NCBI GenBank assembly: GCA_034687125.1
Contig: JAQGBZ010000291.1
Coordinates: 1-64,000, forward strand
DNA from: Neelides folsomi
Lineage: Eukaryota > Arthropoda > Collembola > Neelipleona > Neelidae
Direction: 5' to 3'
DNA: 64,000 nt
Below, one piece after another: positions 4,362 through 30,025 of this stretch. Each line of letters opens with the position of its first letter. Within the stretch, counting starts at the first letter, position 1. The position numbers were made by a program, and so were the translations under genes. The notes beneath the pieces were generated by a model that was given only the letters and a program-made list of their open reading frames with translations, had not been told where the DNA came from and searched no databases.

Positions 4362-6377
4362 ATGGGGACGGAACAAGAGTCAGAGGCCGGGCGAGAATTG
4401 GAACTTTTGGTCGGGGACGAAGACCCGGCTTCCAATTTATACACCACGGCCGCGTCGCTATTTGCCAAAGGAGAATTCGTCGATTGTTCAATTGCCTGTT
4501 CCGATGGACAGATACAGGCTCACCGGGTAAACAAACTTTATTGCAACTCACGTCACAATCCATTTATTTCCCAAGAGAATCCAATTGAGTGGTTCAAAAA
4601 ATACCCGGAAATGCCCGGAAAAACATTAAAAAACAATTTTATTTATTTTATTCATTCTGACAATTTTGAACTTTATATTTTAAAAGAATAATTAATTTTA
4701 TTAAATATTTTAAAAATTAAATGATCGGTTTAATTTCAGATTGTACTTTCTGCCGTGAGTCCTTATTTGTACAAAATCCTGAATAGCACACCATGGCCAA
4801 GTCCTTGTGCTCATCCTGTCATCATTCTGAGGGGTTCGACCATGGCAGACGTCCGACTGGCTCTTGAGTTCATTTACAAAGGACGGCTGAAGACCAGCAA
4901 GAAAAAGTTTCCATTTCTTATGGATATCTCCAGAGACTTGGGATGTGTGTCATTGAGGAAAGCCATCGAAAGATCAATTTCTCATTGTGGAGTTCAGATG
5001 TTTAGAAGGATGAGCGAAAAACGAAGTTTGGAGCCTGAAGAACCAACAATTGATAAAGACGAAGGCGAAGTGTCGACAAATTCAGTGGCGAATTCAAATG
5101 TTGAACCCAAAGAAGAAGAAGAGAAAAAAAGTGAACAAGAGACGAAAAAATTAAAATGGGACGAGGTGATCGTGAAGGAAGAGCCGGGAGGTGAAACTTT
5201 TGAATATACGAGCGAAGCACTTGGACTTGTGTCAATGGAAGACGAAGAGTTGTCGGAGGGAGAAGAACGAAGCAGGGAGAATATTAATATTGGAACCGCC
5301 ACTGGCCTCATGGTATGTTGAGCAGAAGGAATTCTAATCCTCATTTCCGATTCGGAAATAGAGAAAAATCCCTTTGGGGTTCGTCCTGGTTCGTTCTGTG
5401 GGAGTTGGACGAAAATCATCAGTTTGTTCATTCCAGAACCGAAAGACGATTCTTGAATGAGAATGAAGGAGAGGGAAAACAACGGAGGATTCCGCATAGG
5501 GACAAAATCTGCTTTTTAGTCAAAGGATGAACCCGAAAGGAAATTTATGATCCTTTTGAATGCATTCAACTCATTCAACCAATTCATCCCAATTCATCCC
5601 AATTTCCAAAATCCTACCAAAATCCTTGATTTAATTTGGAGAATCCAAATTAAATTTTGCGATTAATTTATTGATTGGTTAATTTAAATTTTAATTGGAA
5701 TTAATTTAAAATAATGAACTAAATTTTATTGATTTTTAGGGTGATATTCGTGATGAAAGTGGAGCTGATGAAACTCCTGCAAGTTGTCCTTGGTGTCTTC
5801 AAGTCTTCACCAATCTGAGTCTCCTCCAAAGACACATTAAAACTCATGTTGGAAGTTATAAACCATTTACCTGCGAGTACTGCCATGTAAAACACAACAC
5901 GATAAAAATGAAACTTTAAATATTAAAATTTTAAATTCCATTTAATTATTATTATATTTTTACTCATATAACTCTTTATCTCATTTCAAATATCTAGAGT
6001 TTAGCTCAATTTTTATGTCTAATGTCTTATATACTTTTCAGAATACTTTTGCCAGATCTGCTCATTTAAAACGTCATCTTCGAACACATACAGGAGAAAA
6101 GCCATATCAATGCACAATTTGCCTTCGTCCCTTTGCCCGACAAGACAAATTGAAAGTTCATCTCGAACGACATCTCCACAATTCTGTAAAGGAAGACAAC
6201 CGGCTTGAAGAAAATCGTTTGGATGGAGTGGAAGAACCCAATTCAATTCATCCAACAATGATAAATGCCAATTCAATTCACAACTCCTTTAATTTAAATC
6301 AAATCTACGGAGGGCAACAAAGACTTAATTTGAATAATGTTAATAATCTTAACATGAAACCGAATAATGCAATGTAG
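4362..6377 (+). CDS. BTB/POZ C2H2 zinc-finger transcription factor (406 aa)
   Basis: Exons 4362-4526, 4740-5312, 5740-5886 and 6042-6377; all three introns are phase 0 with GT/AG borders. The start is fixed by an in-frame TAG at 4353, three codons upstream, just after a 5' UTR acceptor (AG 4348-4349). Residues about 33-130 form a BTB domain ([14 protein letters not shown], then [13 protein letters not shown] split by intron 1, then LEFIYKGRL). Residues about 145-245 are acidic, rich in Glu and Lys, and include VKEEP, which fits a SUMO-acceptor consensus. Three C2H2 fingers follow: 262-282, 291-311 (split by intron 3) and 319-339, the last two joined by the classical TGEKPY linker. The family consists of nuclear, BTB-dimerising, DNA-binding regulators, often repressors. 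The tail is Asn-rich. Orthology to a named insect factor (tramtrack, chinmo and similar) cannot be decided by eye. Confidence 0.9.
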
Positions 6378-6996: not shown

Positions 6997-8622
6997 TTAT
7001 GCTGCTGGAATTGGCTTAACATAATTTATAATTGTTGATGAAACTTCTGGATGAACTTTTCGTTCTGTGAAAAATCCAACGAGATTTGAAAAAAGCGCCG
7101 GCTCAAGGAAGAAATGGAGCAGAGGAATTAAAGCTGAACTCGAATGCATCAACCAATAAACTCCTTTGGATAAGTCGGCTGGAAAAGCTTCTTGGATAAA
7201 ACCACCGACCTATTTGTTAAATTAAAATTAAAATACTAGATAATTAAGATAAATTAATAGATCAGAACGGAGCGCTGGTCAGAAAATAATAGAATGCATT
7301 TTATGAAGGTATCTAAAATCATCGTTATTTAATTGATGTAGTAAAAGCAATAAATTTAAAAATTCACCCCAAAATAAATGAAGAATGGAGATCTGGAAGT
7401 TATGAAAATTCCAAGAAGAAAAGCCACAAAGGGAAGTCTCGCTTTCGCCTTTGCTTCCTCCCGCTCCACGATGTTCATCGTCCGAGCGACGAAAGACGCC
7501 GTAAGAACGTGTTTCAAAAATGGCGAATCTAATACCCGGGAATTTGAAATTGCCGATACATCCCTAGATGGATCTTCCCTTGGTGTCATTTTCTTCACAT
7601 TGTAAATCCCCATAAGAGCTCCAAAAGCTCCGATAATTGTAGGGACGTAAAAGCCGAGCAAACCAACATAAAACGCGAAGAATCCATTGTTGTAAATCCC
7701 ATACCCGCAGGTTCCAACTTTGTATTGGGAATTAAGACGATCGTAAAGAAACGGCGGGGCCCAAATCAAATTCGTCATTAGCCATAATGAACAAATGACC
7801 CGAAAATCCCAACAAGCCTTTTCCTCATTGTGCGGAAAGGGAGAAGTTAAAGATAAAAAATTCAACCTAAAGGCAATAATTCAATAATTTAGAAGAAATC
7901 AAAATCATTATTAATTTTATTATTATTAATTATGAAAAAATTTTATTCAACATTCTCAAAAATCAATTAATTCGGAAAGATTTGCTTCTGTAAAATTTAA
8001 CTTTTATTTTAATAATTTAATTTAATAAATTCTTACATAATGGCTGCGAATGAAAAAGAAGATAAAATAATGAGGAAGAAATCCACGTAGACCCAAAGAC
8101 CACAAACATGCCGACTGAATGGCGAATAACCCAAAACGACCAAAGTTCCCATGAATGGAACAACACACAAAGCAGTGAGACCATCAACAGCACCTAAAAT
8201 ATTTTTAATTAATTTTAATTAAAATTAATCAAATAAAAACTTAATAGATAGCTGGGTTATTTGTAATTATAAAAAATACTAAATGAATAAAATTCATCAA
8301 AATGCAAAAAAGCAACATCCAAATGAAAATTCTTACATAAATTGAGAATATAAAAATCCCATGGATCTCTTTTTTTCTCTTTCCACGATCCAACAATTGC
8401 CAAGGCCAGGAGGAAATTTCCCAAAAGAGCCACAAATGCTAAGGACGAGGCGCCAACCAAAATCGCTACGTTGACTCCCGTAGCTTCAAAATGAATATCT
8501 TTGTAATAATTGGTGTGATTGACCAATTCATGTGGAGGGTCAAATGGAGAAAGAAGGCGGATAATTCCTTTAGGATATTTGGGGACTTTTTGATCAATTT
8601 TATCCAATAATGAAACGTTCAT
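6997..8622 (-). CDS. class A (rhodopsin-type) GPCR, aminergic-like but divergent (384 aa)
   Basis: Exons on the complement: 8622-8337, 8193-8037, 7866-7368 and 7209-6997 (intron phases 1, 2, 0), with clean GT/AG borders and TAA at 6999-6997. Seven membrane segments can be placed: about 50-78, 89-115, 126-150, 167-188, 209-236, 290-313 and 329-352. Conserved class A positions present: G68-N69 (TM1), D99 in LCAVD (TM2), C126 at the top of TM3, D133 seven residues later (the amine-binding Asp 3.32), W176 (TM4), P223 in FYVP (TM5) and P308 (TM6). The N-terminus has two N-glycosylation sequons (N2, N35). Lost positions: D/E-R-Y is replaced by LNF at 149-151, CWxP reads SRSP at 305-308, and NPxxY reads IPLLH at 342-346. 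The third intracellular loop is short, about 50 residues. Layout is nearest to biogenic amine or muscarinic-type receptors. The ligand is unknown, and coupling may be altered. Confidence 0.85.
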
Positions 8623-8848: not shown

Positions 8849-9148
8849 ATGAGTGTGAAGTAAGAGCACCAGCACATTCCTAGGTATAGGGAAATACGTG
8901 TATTTCAGAGGTCACGTTTGTATCAATTCGTACTCCTGAAATTTAGAGGATCGAAAGGTCATGTCAAGACCTCTTCACTGACCAGATATTTCATGGGAGG
9001 TTATGGGGCAACCTACTGAAAAAATTTAAAAAAACCGCCAAAATACGATATTTTTACGGTTAATTAATTTTTGATACAAACGTGGTCTCTGAAATACACG
9101 TATTTCCCTATACCTAGGAATGTGCTGGTGCTCTTACTTCACACTCAT
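8849..9148. mobile_element. MITE with long terminal inverted repeats, Mutator-like
   Basis: Left arm 8849-8926 and right arm 9071-9148 are reverse complements over 78 bp, differing only at two adjacent bases. The outer ends read ATGAGTGTGAAGTAAG inward from both sides. The 9-bp sequence GTAAGGAAA directly flanks the element on both sides (8840-8848 and 9149-9157) and is read as the target-site duplication. Total length is 300 bp with no coding capacity. Long TIRs with a 9-bp duplication are typical of MULE (Mutator-like) non-autonomous elements. hAT elements make 8-bp duplications and usually have short TIRs, so they fit less well. The near-identical arms suggest a fairly recent insertion. 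Confidence 0.85.
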
Positions 9149-26300: not shown

Positions 26301-26702
26301 CCACCTTGCTAAAAGATCCGTCTCTCCAATGAGAATCCCTAATGAGACCGTTAGCTCACTGCACCACTCTCCTCGTATAAATACCTTTACTCTCCAACTC
26401 CCCATCATCTTCATTCACTCTCACTCTCACAAACCTCTTCACATCATTCTCTATATCTTCTCTATTTACTATCTTTTGAAATATATTATTTTCCATCCTT
26501 CTTTATTCTTTATCTTTTTATCAATTTTATAATAATTTTCATATTTAAGATTCTTTAGTGAGAGGATTTAATTAAGGAGTCAAGATGTCATAAATTTAAT
26601 ATAGAATTCAAGTGCCATAATTGAACAACTGTGCCAAAAAGTGCCATTTTTTAGAATTATTTTTTAGAATTTTAATTGTTGGATTGTTAAATTGTTGTGA
26701 AA
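23316..26702. other. intergenic region, divergent promoters
   Basis: Upstream DNA shared by tetraspan gene A (minus) and the peroxidase gene (plus). It holds a TATA box for the peroxidase at 26376-26383. The 124-codon open frame at 26158-26532 overlaps that TATA box and the predicted leader, and has simple Ser/His/Leu composition, so it is not called as a gene. Nothing else is supported. Confidence 0.4.
26376..26383 (+). promoter_or_regulatory. TATA box of the peroxidase gene
   Basis: TATAAATA lies in a locally GC-richer stretch, with initiator-like TCATCT (26405-26410) and TCATTC (26411-26416) 30-37 nt downstream. This gives a leader of about 290 nt before the ATG at 26703 without needing an intron. 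Confidence 0.55.
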
Positions 26703-29700
26703 ATGAAAATGATTGTTGGAGTTTTCTTAGCCGTGATTTCAATCACGGCTGGTCAGTTGAGCTTCAGTGGACTTAATTTTTTCCCTCCGAGTGTCCCTTT
26801 GGTTCAAGATGACGAAACGTTGTTGAACCAAGTCATGTCAAATGTAATTGAGGAAGTGAGCGGCCTTCAAGGGACCACGTTGGGGAAGGCGGAGAAAATT
26901 GGTTCACAATTTACCCAAGATAACCATCACGGGATCAAAAATGTGAATTTGAGATTCAATGGCCATTCTTACTGCAAATTCACACCAACGACGGAGAAAA
27001 TTGGCCTCGTGAGCAATTTGAATATGAGGGCAATGGAAATCATTACGAAAGACCATCCGCATGTTCCAAGAAGGAAAGTTCTCAAATTCCTTTCCGATCG
27101 TCTCCCAGAATTTTGTGAGCGACAGAACAATGTCGTGAAAAAAGCTTGCGATCCAAATTTTAAGTACAGAACAATTGATGGAACTTGTAACAATTTGCAA
27201 AATCCTTTCTGGGGTAATTTTTAAAATTTATTAGAAAAGTTTTTTTTCATTAAATTTTTGCAATTTTAGGTTTTTGCAATTTTTGGATTAGCATGATTTC
27301 TGCTAGATTAATTTTAGAGGCCATTTGAATATTGATCTATGAATAGATGTGCTGGAATTCAAAAAATGTAGAGTTGTAGACAAAGGGTATTTAACAACTT
27401 TTGCAATTTTGTTAATTTTGTTTGGCTATTTATTACACAATGCCAATTCTTAGAATTGGCATTGTGTTTTAATTCTTTATTACACAATTTTAATTCTTAG
27501 AATTACTGACTGATAAAGAATAAGAGAGGAAATTGAATGAGAGTTTAACTTTGGTTTAACACATTATTTTTCACACTTTCTTTTCAATTAGCATTTTTCA
27601 GCGTTTATATAACATATTCTAACCAATCTGAATTCTTCATCTTTAAAATAAAAAAAATACTTTACATTTGAATCGAGAAAGATCATTGCCAATTGAATTA
27701 TTTTAAATAAGTTAAAATAAAAAAATAAATAATTATCAAATTAGATATTTTTGCTAGTTTGATTATTTTGTATTTTAGCAGAGTATAAGGAAAAAAAATT
27801 ATACCAACCTTGTGAAAACATTAGTTAATAATTATGGAATATAGGGAATGTCAACTACCTATGTACATTTAACAAAGTTAGTTAATTAGTTATTTAATTA
27901 AAATTTATTTATTAATTGTTTTGTAGGATCGACGTTCACAGCTTTCGACCGATTGATGCCAGCATTTTATGAAGATGGATACAACGAAGCACGTGGTGGG
28001 ATGGGAAGGAACAAAGTCCCGCGTCTTCCAAATGTTCGTTTAATTTCCACGACGCTCCATCCAGATCTTATTGCTCCTCACCAAGCCATCACCAACATGC
28101 TCCCACAATTTGGGCAATTCCTCGACCACGACATGACACTCGTAATTGAACAAAATTCTCTAAATCCATTTTATAAATATATTTAATATATTTAAAAATT
28201 TAAAATAAAATTATTCATTTTATATAAGTAAAAAATAGATATTTTGTCATTCTTTTTTATTTAATTAACTATATTGATATTTTAATTTATTTAAATGCCC
28301 AACTTTCCAAAGTTAAATAACAATATTGTATAGACACCTGAAAGTGACAAGAGATGTTGTACAACTGACCGAAGCAATATGGATTGTTGGCCCATTGAGA
28401 TCTTCAGGAATGATCCTTTTTTCTCAAACGTGTCAATTCCGCAAACTTGCATGGACTTCACACGTTCCACATCTTATTGCTTTCCCACAGGTAATGACAA
28501 AAATATAATTTTACTTTTATGTGATTATAACTTTAAATATTGTTCTTTTAAGCGATAATTATATGACCCTAAGTCAATGTCAACTGTATTAAAATATTCA
28601 GTTAATTTATTTTATAAAATATAAATAAATTTTTCTAAACAGCTTCCGGAGTTAGAGAGCAAATGAATATTGTAACTGCCTTTGTGGACGGATCCCACGT
28701 TTATCATGTAAGTATTAAACTCAGTTAAATTTAAATCCTCAGATTATAAAATATTTTAGGGAGGATACCAATTATCTATAATAATAATGTTGGAATTTTA
28801 ATTAATTAACATTAATTAATGATTTTAGTCGGAAGATCACAAGAGTCATCAACTCCGTGAATATTTCGGTGGTCGTTTCCGTGTCAATCGCCTTAATCCA
28901 TTTCTCCTCCCATCGGCCGAAGAAGTGAAGGCGATCTTAAACGAAGAAGTTGAAATCATGGGTCATTTCGCAGGAGGAGAAGAACGAGTCAATGAAATGC
29001 CGGCTTTAACCACAATGCACATTTTGCTCTTCCGGGAACACAATCGATTGGCTGATGAAATCCGCTCAAAAAGACCTTATTGGAACGATGAGAAAATATT
29101 CCAAGAAGCTCGTCGGATTCTCATTGCTGAATGGCAAAACGTTGTTTATGGCGAATATCTCCCGATCGTTCTCGGAGATGACACAATGAAAAGATATGCT
29201 TTGACCCTCGATGGGTTTTTCACATCTTACAACCCAAATGTCAACCCGACCATTTTCCATTCATTTGCAACTGCCGCGTATCGGTTCGGCCATACTTTGA
29301 TTAATGGGCTTGTTCGGCTCATGCGCGGATTGTCCCATGTCGGATCTTATCGTCTTCGGGACAATTTCTTCAATCATGAACAAATCACGAGGAATATGGG
29401 CGAAGGATACGATCTCATTCTTAACGGACTCCTTATCCAAAATGCTCAAATCTACGATCCATTTGTCACCGAAGATTTGACCAATTTCTTGCTCAGGAAC
29501 AAAGAAAACGATTTTGGCGGGGATTTAATTGCAAGAAATTTACAAAGAGGGCGGGACCACGGACTTCGACCTTACAACGCCTACAGGCAAATTTGTCACA
29601 TGTCACCGTTGACCACGTGGGGAAATCGGCCATCAAACATCCACCAAGACACGTGGTTGAAATTGCAAACTTTGTACGAGTCGCCGTTAGAAATTGATTT

Positions 29701-30025
29701 GTTCACTGGTGGAATTTCTGAAATTCCTCATCCGGGTGCAATTTCTGGGTCGACTTACAATTGCTTAAAAGCTCTGCAGTTCGGGAGAGCTAAATACGGC
29801 GATCGGTTTTTCTTCACCCATCAGGGTCAAGCCGGGTCGTTTACGCCAGACCAAGTGAGGGAAATTCGAAAAATGAGTTTTGGGGACATGATGTGCCTCA
29901 ATTCCAAGTTGGAAATGACGACCATGAATGTTTTCAAAGTTCCCTCAAACGAGAATCCGTTCATGTTCTGCAAAGACACGAGAAGAAATTTCCTCAATAT
30001 TGATCTCTTCCTCACTGAACCATAA
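26703..30025 (+). CDS. secreted animal haem peroxidase (714 aa)
   Basis: Exons 26703-27213, 27927-28141, 28334-28490, 28643-28707 and 28829-30025 (phases 1, 0, 1, 0), ending in TAA. Residues 1-18 are a signal peptide. The catalytic core is complete: FGQFLDHDMT carries D237 (haem ester) and distal H238; RVNEMP carries catalytic R369, haem-ester E372 and M373; REHNRLADE follows; AYRFGHTLI carries proximal H471; NLQRGRDHGLRPYNAYR is the family signature. Cysteine pairs in exons 1 and 3 match the usual disulphides. These extracellular enzymes use hydrogen peroxide to oxidise halides, phenols or tyrosines, and in arthropods commonly cross-link chorion, cuticle or mucus. There are no LRR or Ig modules as in peroxidasin, so it is a stand-alone peroxidase of the chorion/salivary/Pxt type. 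M373 is unusual for arthropod members as I know them. The first ATG is used; the GTG two codons earlier is not a start. Confidence 0.93.
27435..27467. repeat. perfect 15-bp hairpin in peroxidase intron 1
   Basis: ACACAATGCCAATTC (27435-27449) and its exact reverse complement (27453-27467) are separated by TTA. The arms are followed by a second partial copy of the ACACAATTTTAATTCTTAG type at about 27481-27500. It lies inside intron 1 and could form a stem in the pre-mRNA. No known element is recognised. Confidence 0.65.

Follow-up and report, generated by a model that had tools for sequence, protein, structure and literature searches.

On balance, and with modest confidence, we favour the reading that the receptor gene in the analysed window (a stretch of 64,000 nucleotides of contig JAQGBZ010000291.1 from the collembolan Neelides folsomi) is intact and belongs to a small, divergent aminergic-like subfamily of class A G-protein-coupled receptors (GPCRs) whose activation network has been replaced, and which most likely operates without canonical G-protein activation, in an atypical receptor role. 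For this subfamily we observe the gene itself, a paralogue on another contig (C334), residues and intron positions that the two share, and purifying selection in the branch formed by C334 and a third, decayed copy (C769). Class A receptors are regarded as sharing one engine, made up of DRY, the toggle tryptophan, NPxxY and Y5.58. A naturally kept subfamily that replaces all of these switches yet keeps the fold markers would test which parts of a receptor serve folding and which signalling, as well as the existence of pseudo-GPCRs in the amine systems of arthropods. None of the titles returned by our search of the open-licence literature reports an aminergic-like receptor of an arthropod in which all three motifs are missing.

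Gene structure, switch residues and ligand pocket

The gene lies on the minus strand (8622-6997, coordinates exact), with its ATG at 8622 and its stop codon ending at 6997, and its four exons encode 384 amino acids without an internal stop (Table 1). All three introns are bounded by GT..AG, the third having the weakest-looking donor, and an in-frame stop lies a little upstream of the ATG; the original prediction of four intact exons with good splice sites and no stops is therefore borne out. The predicted protein matches the Pfam family 7tm_1 (E 8.4e-21; 75 bits against a cut-off of 30.5; profile positions 1-258 of 260), the sole family at E <=1. A phmmer search matched 219 distinct PDB sequences at E <=1, headed by the beta1-adrenergic receptor (1.3e-16), and the best 60 of these are adrenergic, muscarinic, histamine, dopamine and serotonin receptors together with two nociceptin receptor entries. 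Class A landmarks are kept (N1.50, D2.50, W4.50, P5.50, P6.50, P7.50 and the cysteines C126/C201), and D133 (3.32), D99 (2.50), the cysteine pair and FYVP (220-223) are all present as had been claimed. At the level of sequence the gene is thus confirmed as encoding an intact class A, aminergic-like GPCR, whose product would be expected to fold as a 7TM receptor and to reach the membrane. An assembly duplicate or recent copy was rejected, as a DNA search of the genome returned the gene alone.

Table 1. Features of the receptor gene, in window coordinates (all on the minus strand)
Feature	Position	Strand	Description	Basis
Exon 1	8337..8622	-	N-terminus, TM1, start of TM2; two N-glycosylation sequons (by eye)	gene model; donor GTAAGAAT
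Exon 2	8037..8193	-	TM2 (D99, 2.50), ECL1, TM3 to the split Met148 codon (3.47)	gene model; acceptor TTTTAG, donor GTAAGAAT
Intron 2	7867..8036	-	phase 2, splits Met148 codon AT-G; same place and phase in C334	gene models
Exon 3	7368..7866	-	end of TM3 through end of TM6	gene model; acceptor CTTTAG, donor GTGAAT
Exon 4	6997..7209	-	ECL3, TM7, C-terminus, stop	gene model; acceptor AAATAG
Asp99 codon	8183..8185	-	D2.50; also kept in C334	numbering and paralogue alignment
Asp133 codon	8081..8083	-	D3.32, amine-type aspartate; also kept in C334	numbering and paralogue alignment
N150-F151-L152	7854..7862	-	replaces D/E-R-Y (3.49-3.51); N-Y-L in C334	helix count, alignment
Ala231 codon	7617..7619	-	5.58, usually Tyr	numbering
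S-R-S-P	7386..7397	-	6.47-6.50 (residues 305-308), replaces C-W-x-P; Arg306 = 6.48; C-R-A-P in C334	numbering, alignment
His336 codon	7144..7146	-	7.43; also His in C334	numbering, alignment
I-P-L-L-H	7114..7128	-	7.49-7.53 (residues 342-346), replaces N-P-x-x-Y; His346 = 7.53; S-P-I-M-H in C334	numbering, alignment

Positions in TM3 were counted from D133 as 3.32, which places S140 at 3.39. The predicted loss of DRY is real, Arg3.50 being gone under either alignment, but the motif had been read one residue early as LNF (7857-7865), and positions 3.49-3.51 are NFL. In the phmmer alignment with the beta1-adrenergic receptor a one-residue gap falls exactly on Arg3.50 because ICL2 of the window receptor is one residue shorter; the paralogue on C334 shows no gap against 5-HT1B and alpha1A as far as the end of TM3, and its motif is N-Y-L. 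The replacement of the toggle tryptophan by arginine (SRSP) and of NPxxY by IPLLH, both predicted, was found at residues 305-308 and 342-346, and the prolines alone survive of these two motifs. Two further losses go beyond the original prediction, Y5.58 (now Ala231) and Y7.43 (now His336). Compared with the aminergic receptors beta1-adrenergic, 5-HT1B and alpha1A, the window receptor is therefore alike in 7tm_1, N1.50, D2.50, the C3.25/ECL2 cysteines, D3.32, W4.50, P5.50, F6.51/F6.52, P6.50, W7.40 and P7.50, and unlike them in reading NFL for DRY, Arg for W6.48, Ile for N7.49, His for Y7.53, Ala at 5.58 and His at 7.43, as well as in a phase-2 intron that lies three codons upstream of the DRY intron.

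Tyrosine is typical of aminergic receptors at 7.43, and Y7.43 and W6.48 belong to the amine pocket; of these aminergic marks D3.32 is present in the window receptor and the other two are absent (H336, R306). The ligand pocket, described beforehand as preserved, is so at D3.32, F6.51, F6.52 and W7.40 but not at 7.43 (His), 6.48 (Arg), 5.42 (Val) and 5.46 (Gly). An alternative splice restoring DRY, which the original prediction had named as one of two observations that would speak against it, was rejected because intron 2, searched in every frame, contains no D/E-R-Y/F/W.

Several other elements were seen around the receptor. A MITE-like element (8849-9148), with 78-nt inverted arms that are 97% complementary and 144 nt between them, lies ~226 bases upstream of the ATG and has 36 matches in the genome, counting itself and arm-to-arm matches. 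Convergent with the receptor, on the plus strand at 4734-6377, are coding stretches for a BTB domain (Pfam) and for C2H2-type zinc-finger-like sequence (by eye), and coding stretches of an animal haem peroxidase were found at 26691-30025 (28829-30025 strong; 26691-27224 a short match below cut-off). Elsewhere in the genome, the mitochondrial contig C742 carries ND2, COI, COII, ATP6, COIII and ND3 consecutively and ND1 on the opposite strand (genes named by eye), an arrangement common among arthropods; its COI suggested a springtail.

A paralogue with matching replacements, and selection

When the genome (75.1 Mb, 840 contigs) was searched with the protein, the next-best match after the window gene itself was a gene of five exons on C334 (C334:56597-59216) that encodes 382 amino acids and is open throughout, with no frame breaks. 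Its protein matches 7tm_1 (E 1.9e-20), has 5-HT1B as its best solved relative (4.5e-14), and carries C-R-A-P and S-P-I-M-H at the other two motifs. The two proteins are 28% identical overall and 29.2% over the 308 core codons of the 7TM core, and have in common the unusual residues N3.49, an aromatic at 3.50, L3.51, A5.58, R6.48, H7.43 and H7.53; N7.49 is absent from both (Ile in the window receptor, Ser in C334). Two of their introns match in position and phase (in the Met codon 3.47, phase 2, and after 6.56, phase 0), and the others differ. Identity is highest in TM3 (0.42) and TM6 (0.41) and low in the loops ICL2 (0.13) and ICL3 (0.22), and an ICL3 patch, SAIS.S...D, recurs in both proteins. 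Since the same kind of replacements occurs in such a distant sister gene, inheritance and retention by selection seem a better account of the change than simple decay, and the activation network would most simply have been replaced once, before the two surviving genes diverged. A long intron of the C334 receptor (L023, 3804-4940) contains inverted-repeat sequence (CCGCACATCCCTCAACGCCGCGCC and its complement), by eye probably a transposable element.

The third copy (L040 on C769, 189-601) is truncated, keeping TM6-TM7 and the C-terminus at 70.8% DNA identity to C334, and is decayed: a TGA stands in frame at W7.40, and the reading frame is broken; it retains C-R-A-P (R6.48) and H7.53. Over 104 codons, excluding the stop codon, the frame-break codons and a gapped codon, C334 and C769 differ by dN 0.19 and dS 1.17 (dN/dS ~0.17), a ratio that indicates purifying selection on the switch-altered form before C769 decayed, the evidence applying to the C334/C769 branch. 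Between the window gene and C334 synonymous differences are saturated (pS 0.755 versus 0.760 when shuffled), which precludes a dN/dS estimate for the former, and pN is 0.475 versus a shuffled 0.714, with 164, 131 and 200 differences at codon positions 1, 2 and 3. That the window gene itself is constrained is argued from its uninterrupted frame, the low pN and the residues it has in common with C334; ~52 stops would be expected in its frame after one neutral substitution per site, and none is observed.

These values bear on the explanation that constraint has been relaxed and that the lineage is heading to loss, its frames being open by happenstance. The truncation, in-frame TGA and frame break of C769 and the long branches of the lineage would fit such a history, which we nevertheless regard as improbable, as the replacements and introns are common to both genes across 29% identity, pN is far under the shuffled expectation while pS is saturated, dN/dS is low between C334 and C769, and the window frame has none of the expected stops. 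Our preferred reading is that the window gene and C334 form a small divergent subfamily with a common altered switch set, constrained in at least one branch as judged from these codon comparisons. The broader original prediction, that an intact aminergic-like receptor lacks the standard switches without being in mere decay, is supported by the intact paralogue with its matching replacements and by purifying selection in the C334/C769 branch.

In a phylogenetic tree of 21 sequences from this genome, built on TM1-TM6 columns (23 rows were prepared; L051 and L054, with <110 residues, were dropped), the window receptor and C334 split from the other 19 sequences with an ultrafast bootstrap of 100. 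The pair sits on its own long branch (branches 0.94 and 1.42, stem 1.07), without a resolved placement towards the other groups in these columns, and the long branches make fast evolution likely; long-branch attraction may contribute to the grouping. A scan of viral contigs with two peptide patterns gave 66 pattern matches, none confirmed as relatives.

Rarity of the changes in the genome

Our census drew on an author-picked part of the 148 PF00001 exon matches in the genome and covers positions 3.50 and 6.48, using a home-made profile without NPxxY columns. Arg3.50 is present in all 27 distinct receptor loci (28 locus ids, L045 being the same receptor as L004; places fetched more than once were counted once) and in all 19 further stretches that reach the motif (20 were fetched; L072 does not reach it), making 46/46 other readable receptors. 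A read-through Arg can derive from the acceptor AG where an intron lies in the motif, and the spliced codons of L046, L047, L050, L052, L056 and L057 were therefore checked; all are Arg. W6.48 is found in 14 of the 17 loci readable there, the remainder having His, His and Leu, and Arg in none (0/17). On these counts the switch losses of the window receptor are more than would be expected by chance.

Arg3.50 is kept also in a divergent group reading KRY, KRN, KRF or RRY. Altered motifs do not by themselves preclude G-protein coupling, and the window receptor could be a fast-evolving, for example chemosensory, receptor that remains G-protein-coupled by way of a rebuilt interface and has N-F/Y-L, Arg6.48 and His7.53 as switches of its own. 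That identical replacements are conserved across an old duplication argues that the new residues have a function and are not only a loss of the old ones, and the two helices of highest identity, TM3 and TM6, hold two of the switches. Against this, Arg3.50 persists even in very divergent receptors of this genome such as the mostly-KRY group, the tyrosines at 5.58 and 7.53 are also gone, and ICL2 and ICL3, where G proteins dock, are little conserved between the paralogues, so we consider a rebuilt interface unlikely, if a shade less so than relaxed constraint.

The divergent group itself comprises eight receptors (L064-L071, on C606, C635, C430, C541 and C348), each matched in one open frame and with KRY, KRN, KRF or RRY for DRY; three of them lie on C430 within ~10 kb, perhaps a lineage-specific expansion. 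Two similar receptors, L059 (C202) and L061 (C365), combine NRY with His at 6.48.

Possible roles and the intron at the DRY motif

PMC6954041, in the part available, sets out an activation pathway in which W6.48 and N7.49 work close to the pocket and the sodium site. Y7.53 makes its contact with R3.50 in layer 3, and in layer 4 the freed R3.50 and its neighbours prepare G-protein binding; the mutations noted there for Y7.53 and D2.50 are all loss-of-function or inactivating. With W6.48, N7.49, Y7.53 and R3.50 lost, the usual path of the signal from the pocket to the G protein appears to be removed at several points. The window protein would be unable to form the R3.50-Y5.58-Y7.53 bridge, by which TM6 is opened and the G protein docked, and the absence of canonical G-protein activation is for this reason most likely. 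Judged from these residues, loss of canonical coupling is the likeliest outcome, and an atypical receptor of this kind would bind or sequester ligand, partner another receptor, or couple to a non-G-protein effector; decoy, partner or arrestin roles are all conceivable. Constitutive G-protein activity would be the least likely of the decoy, constitutive and heterodimer roles, because the G-protein-engaging residues are among those lost.

Atypical chemokine receptors are class A receptors described, in the available portions of PMC12803360 and PMC5635198, as scavenging ligand or recruiting arrestin without G-protein signalling activation. They are a comparison of working mode only, the chemokine lineage being absent among the best 60 PDB matches of the window protein or of C334. 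A response of a class A receptor to one agonist is possible in the absence of the toggle switch, as ACKR3 shows (PMC12803360, in part); as described there ACKR3 keeps R3.50, Y5.58 and Y7.53, whereas the window receptor has lost all three, so that its loss goes further. Choanoflagellate rhodopsin-class receptors, as far as the available text of PMC12716839 goes, have lost E/DRY from TM3, like the window receptor, and have CWxP and NPxxY partly conserved, unlike it, a likeness noted at the level of motif.

A role as obligate partner or chaperone subunit for another receptor of the aminergic class, without signalling of its own, would account for the fold markers and C126/C201 being kept while the activation residues are lost, and the recurrence of the ICL3 patch in C334 is in keeping with it; we hold this to be the least probable of the alternatives considered. 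Returning to a receptor with a replaced network, within the bundle D2.50 or D3.32 may be paired with Arg6.48 and His7.43, at the sites that in other receptors accommodate Na+ and contact the amine, and D3.32 may then belong to an internal pair, with no need for it to bind an amine.

More speculatively, and doubtfully, an arthropod aminergic-derived lineage may have swapped the whole switch set (N-[F/Y]-L at 3.49-3.51, R6.48, H7.43, A5.58 and H7.53), beginning with a three-codon shift of the DRY intron, and arrived at an activation or partner mechanism undescribed for class A in which an internal Arg replaces the sodium ion. A shift of this ancient intron by three codons would replace codons 3.48-3.50, including D-R, and is one possible route to the loss of DRY; it suggests how such a motif can be lost. 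Relative to the canonical phase-2 DRY intron, intron 2 of the window gene and its C334 counterpart lie nine bases (three codons) further upstream, and with the intron at Met 3.47 in both genes, 3.48-3.50 open the next exon. DRY introns of this type have been described (PMC3151243, in the part available). In this genome a phase-2 intron lies within the Arg3.50 codon in five receptors (L046 and L056, AG-G; L050 and L052, AG-A; L057, CG-A), and in L047 a phase-0 intron lies between the Glu and Arg of the motif.
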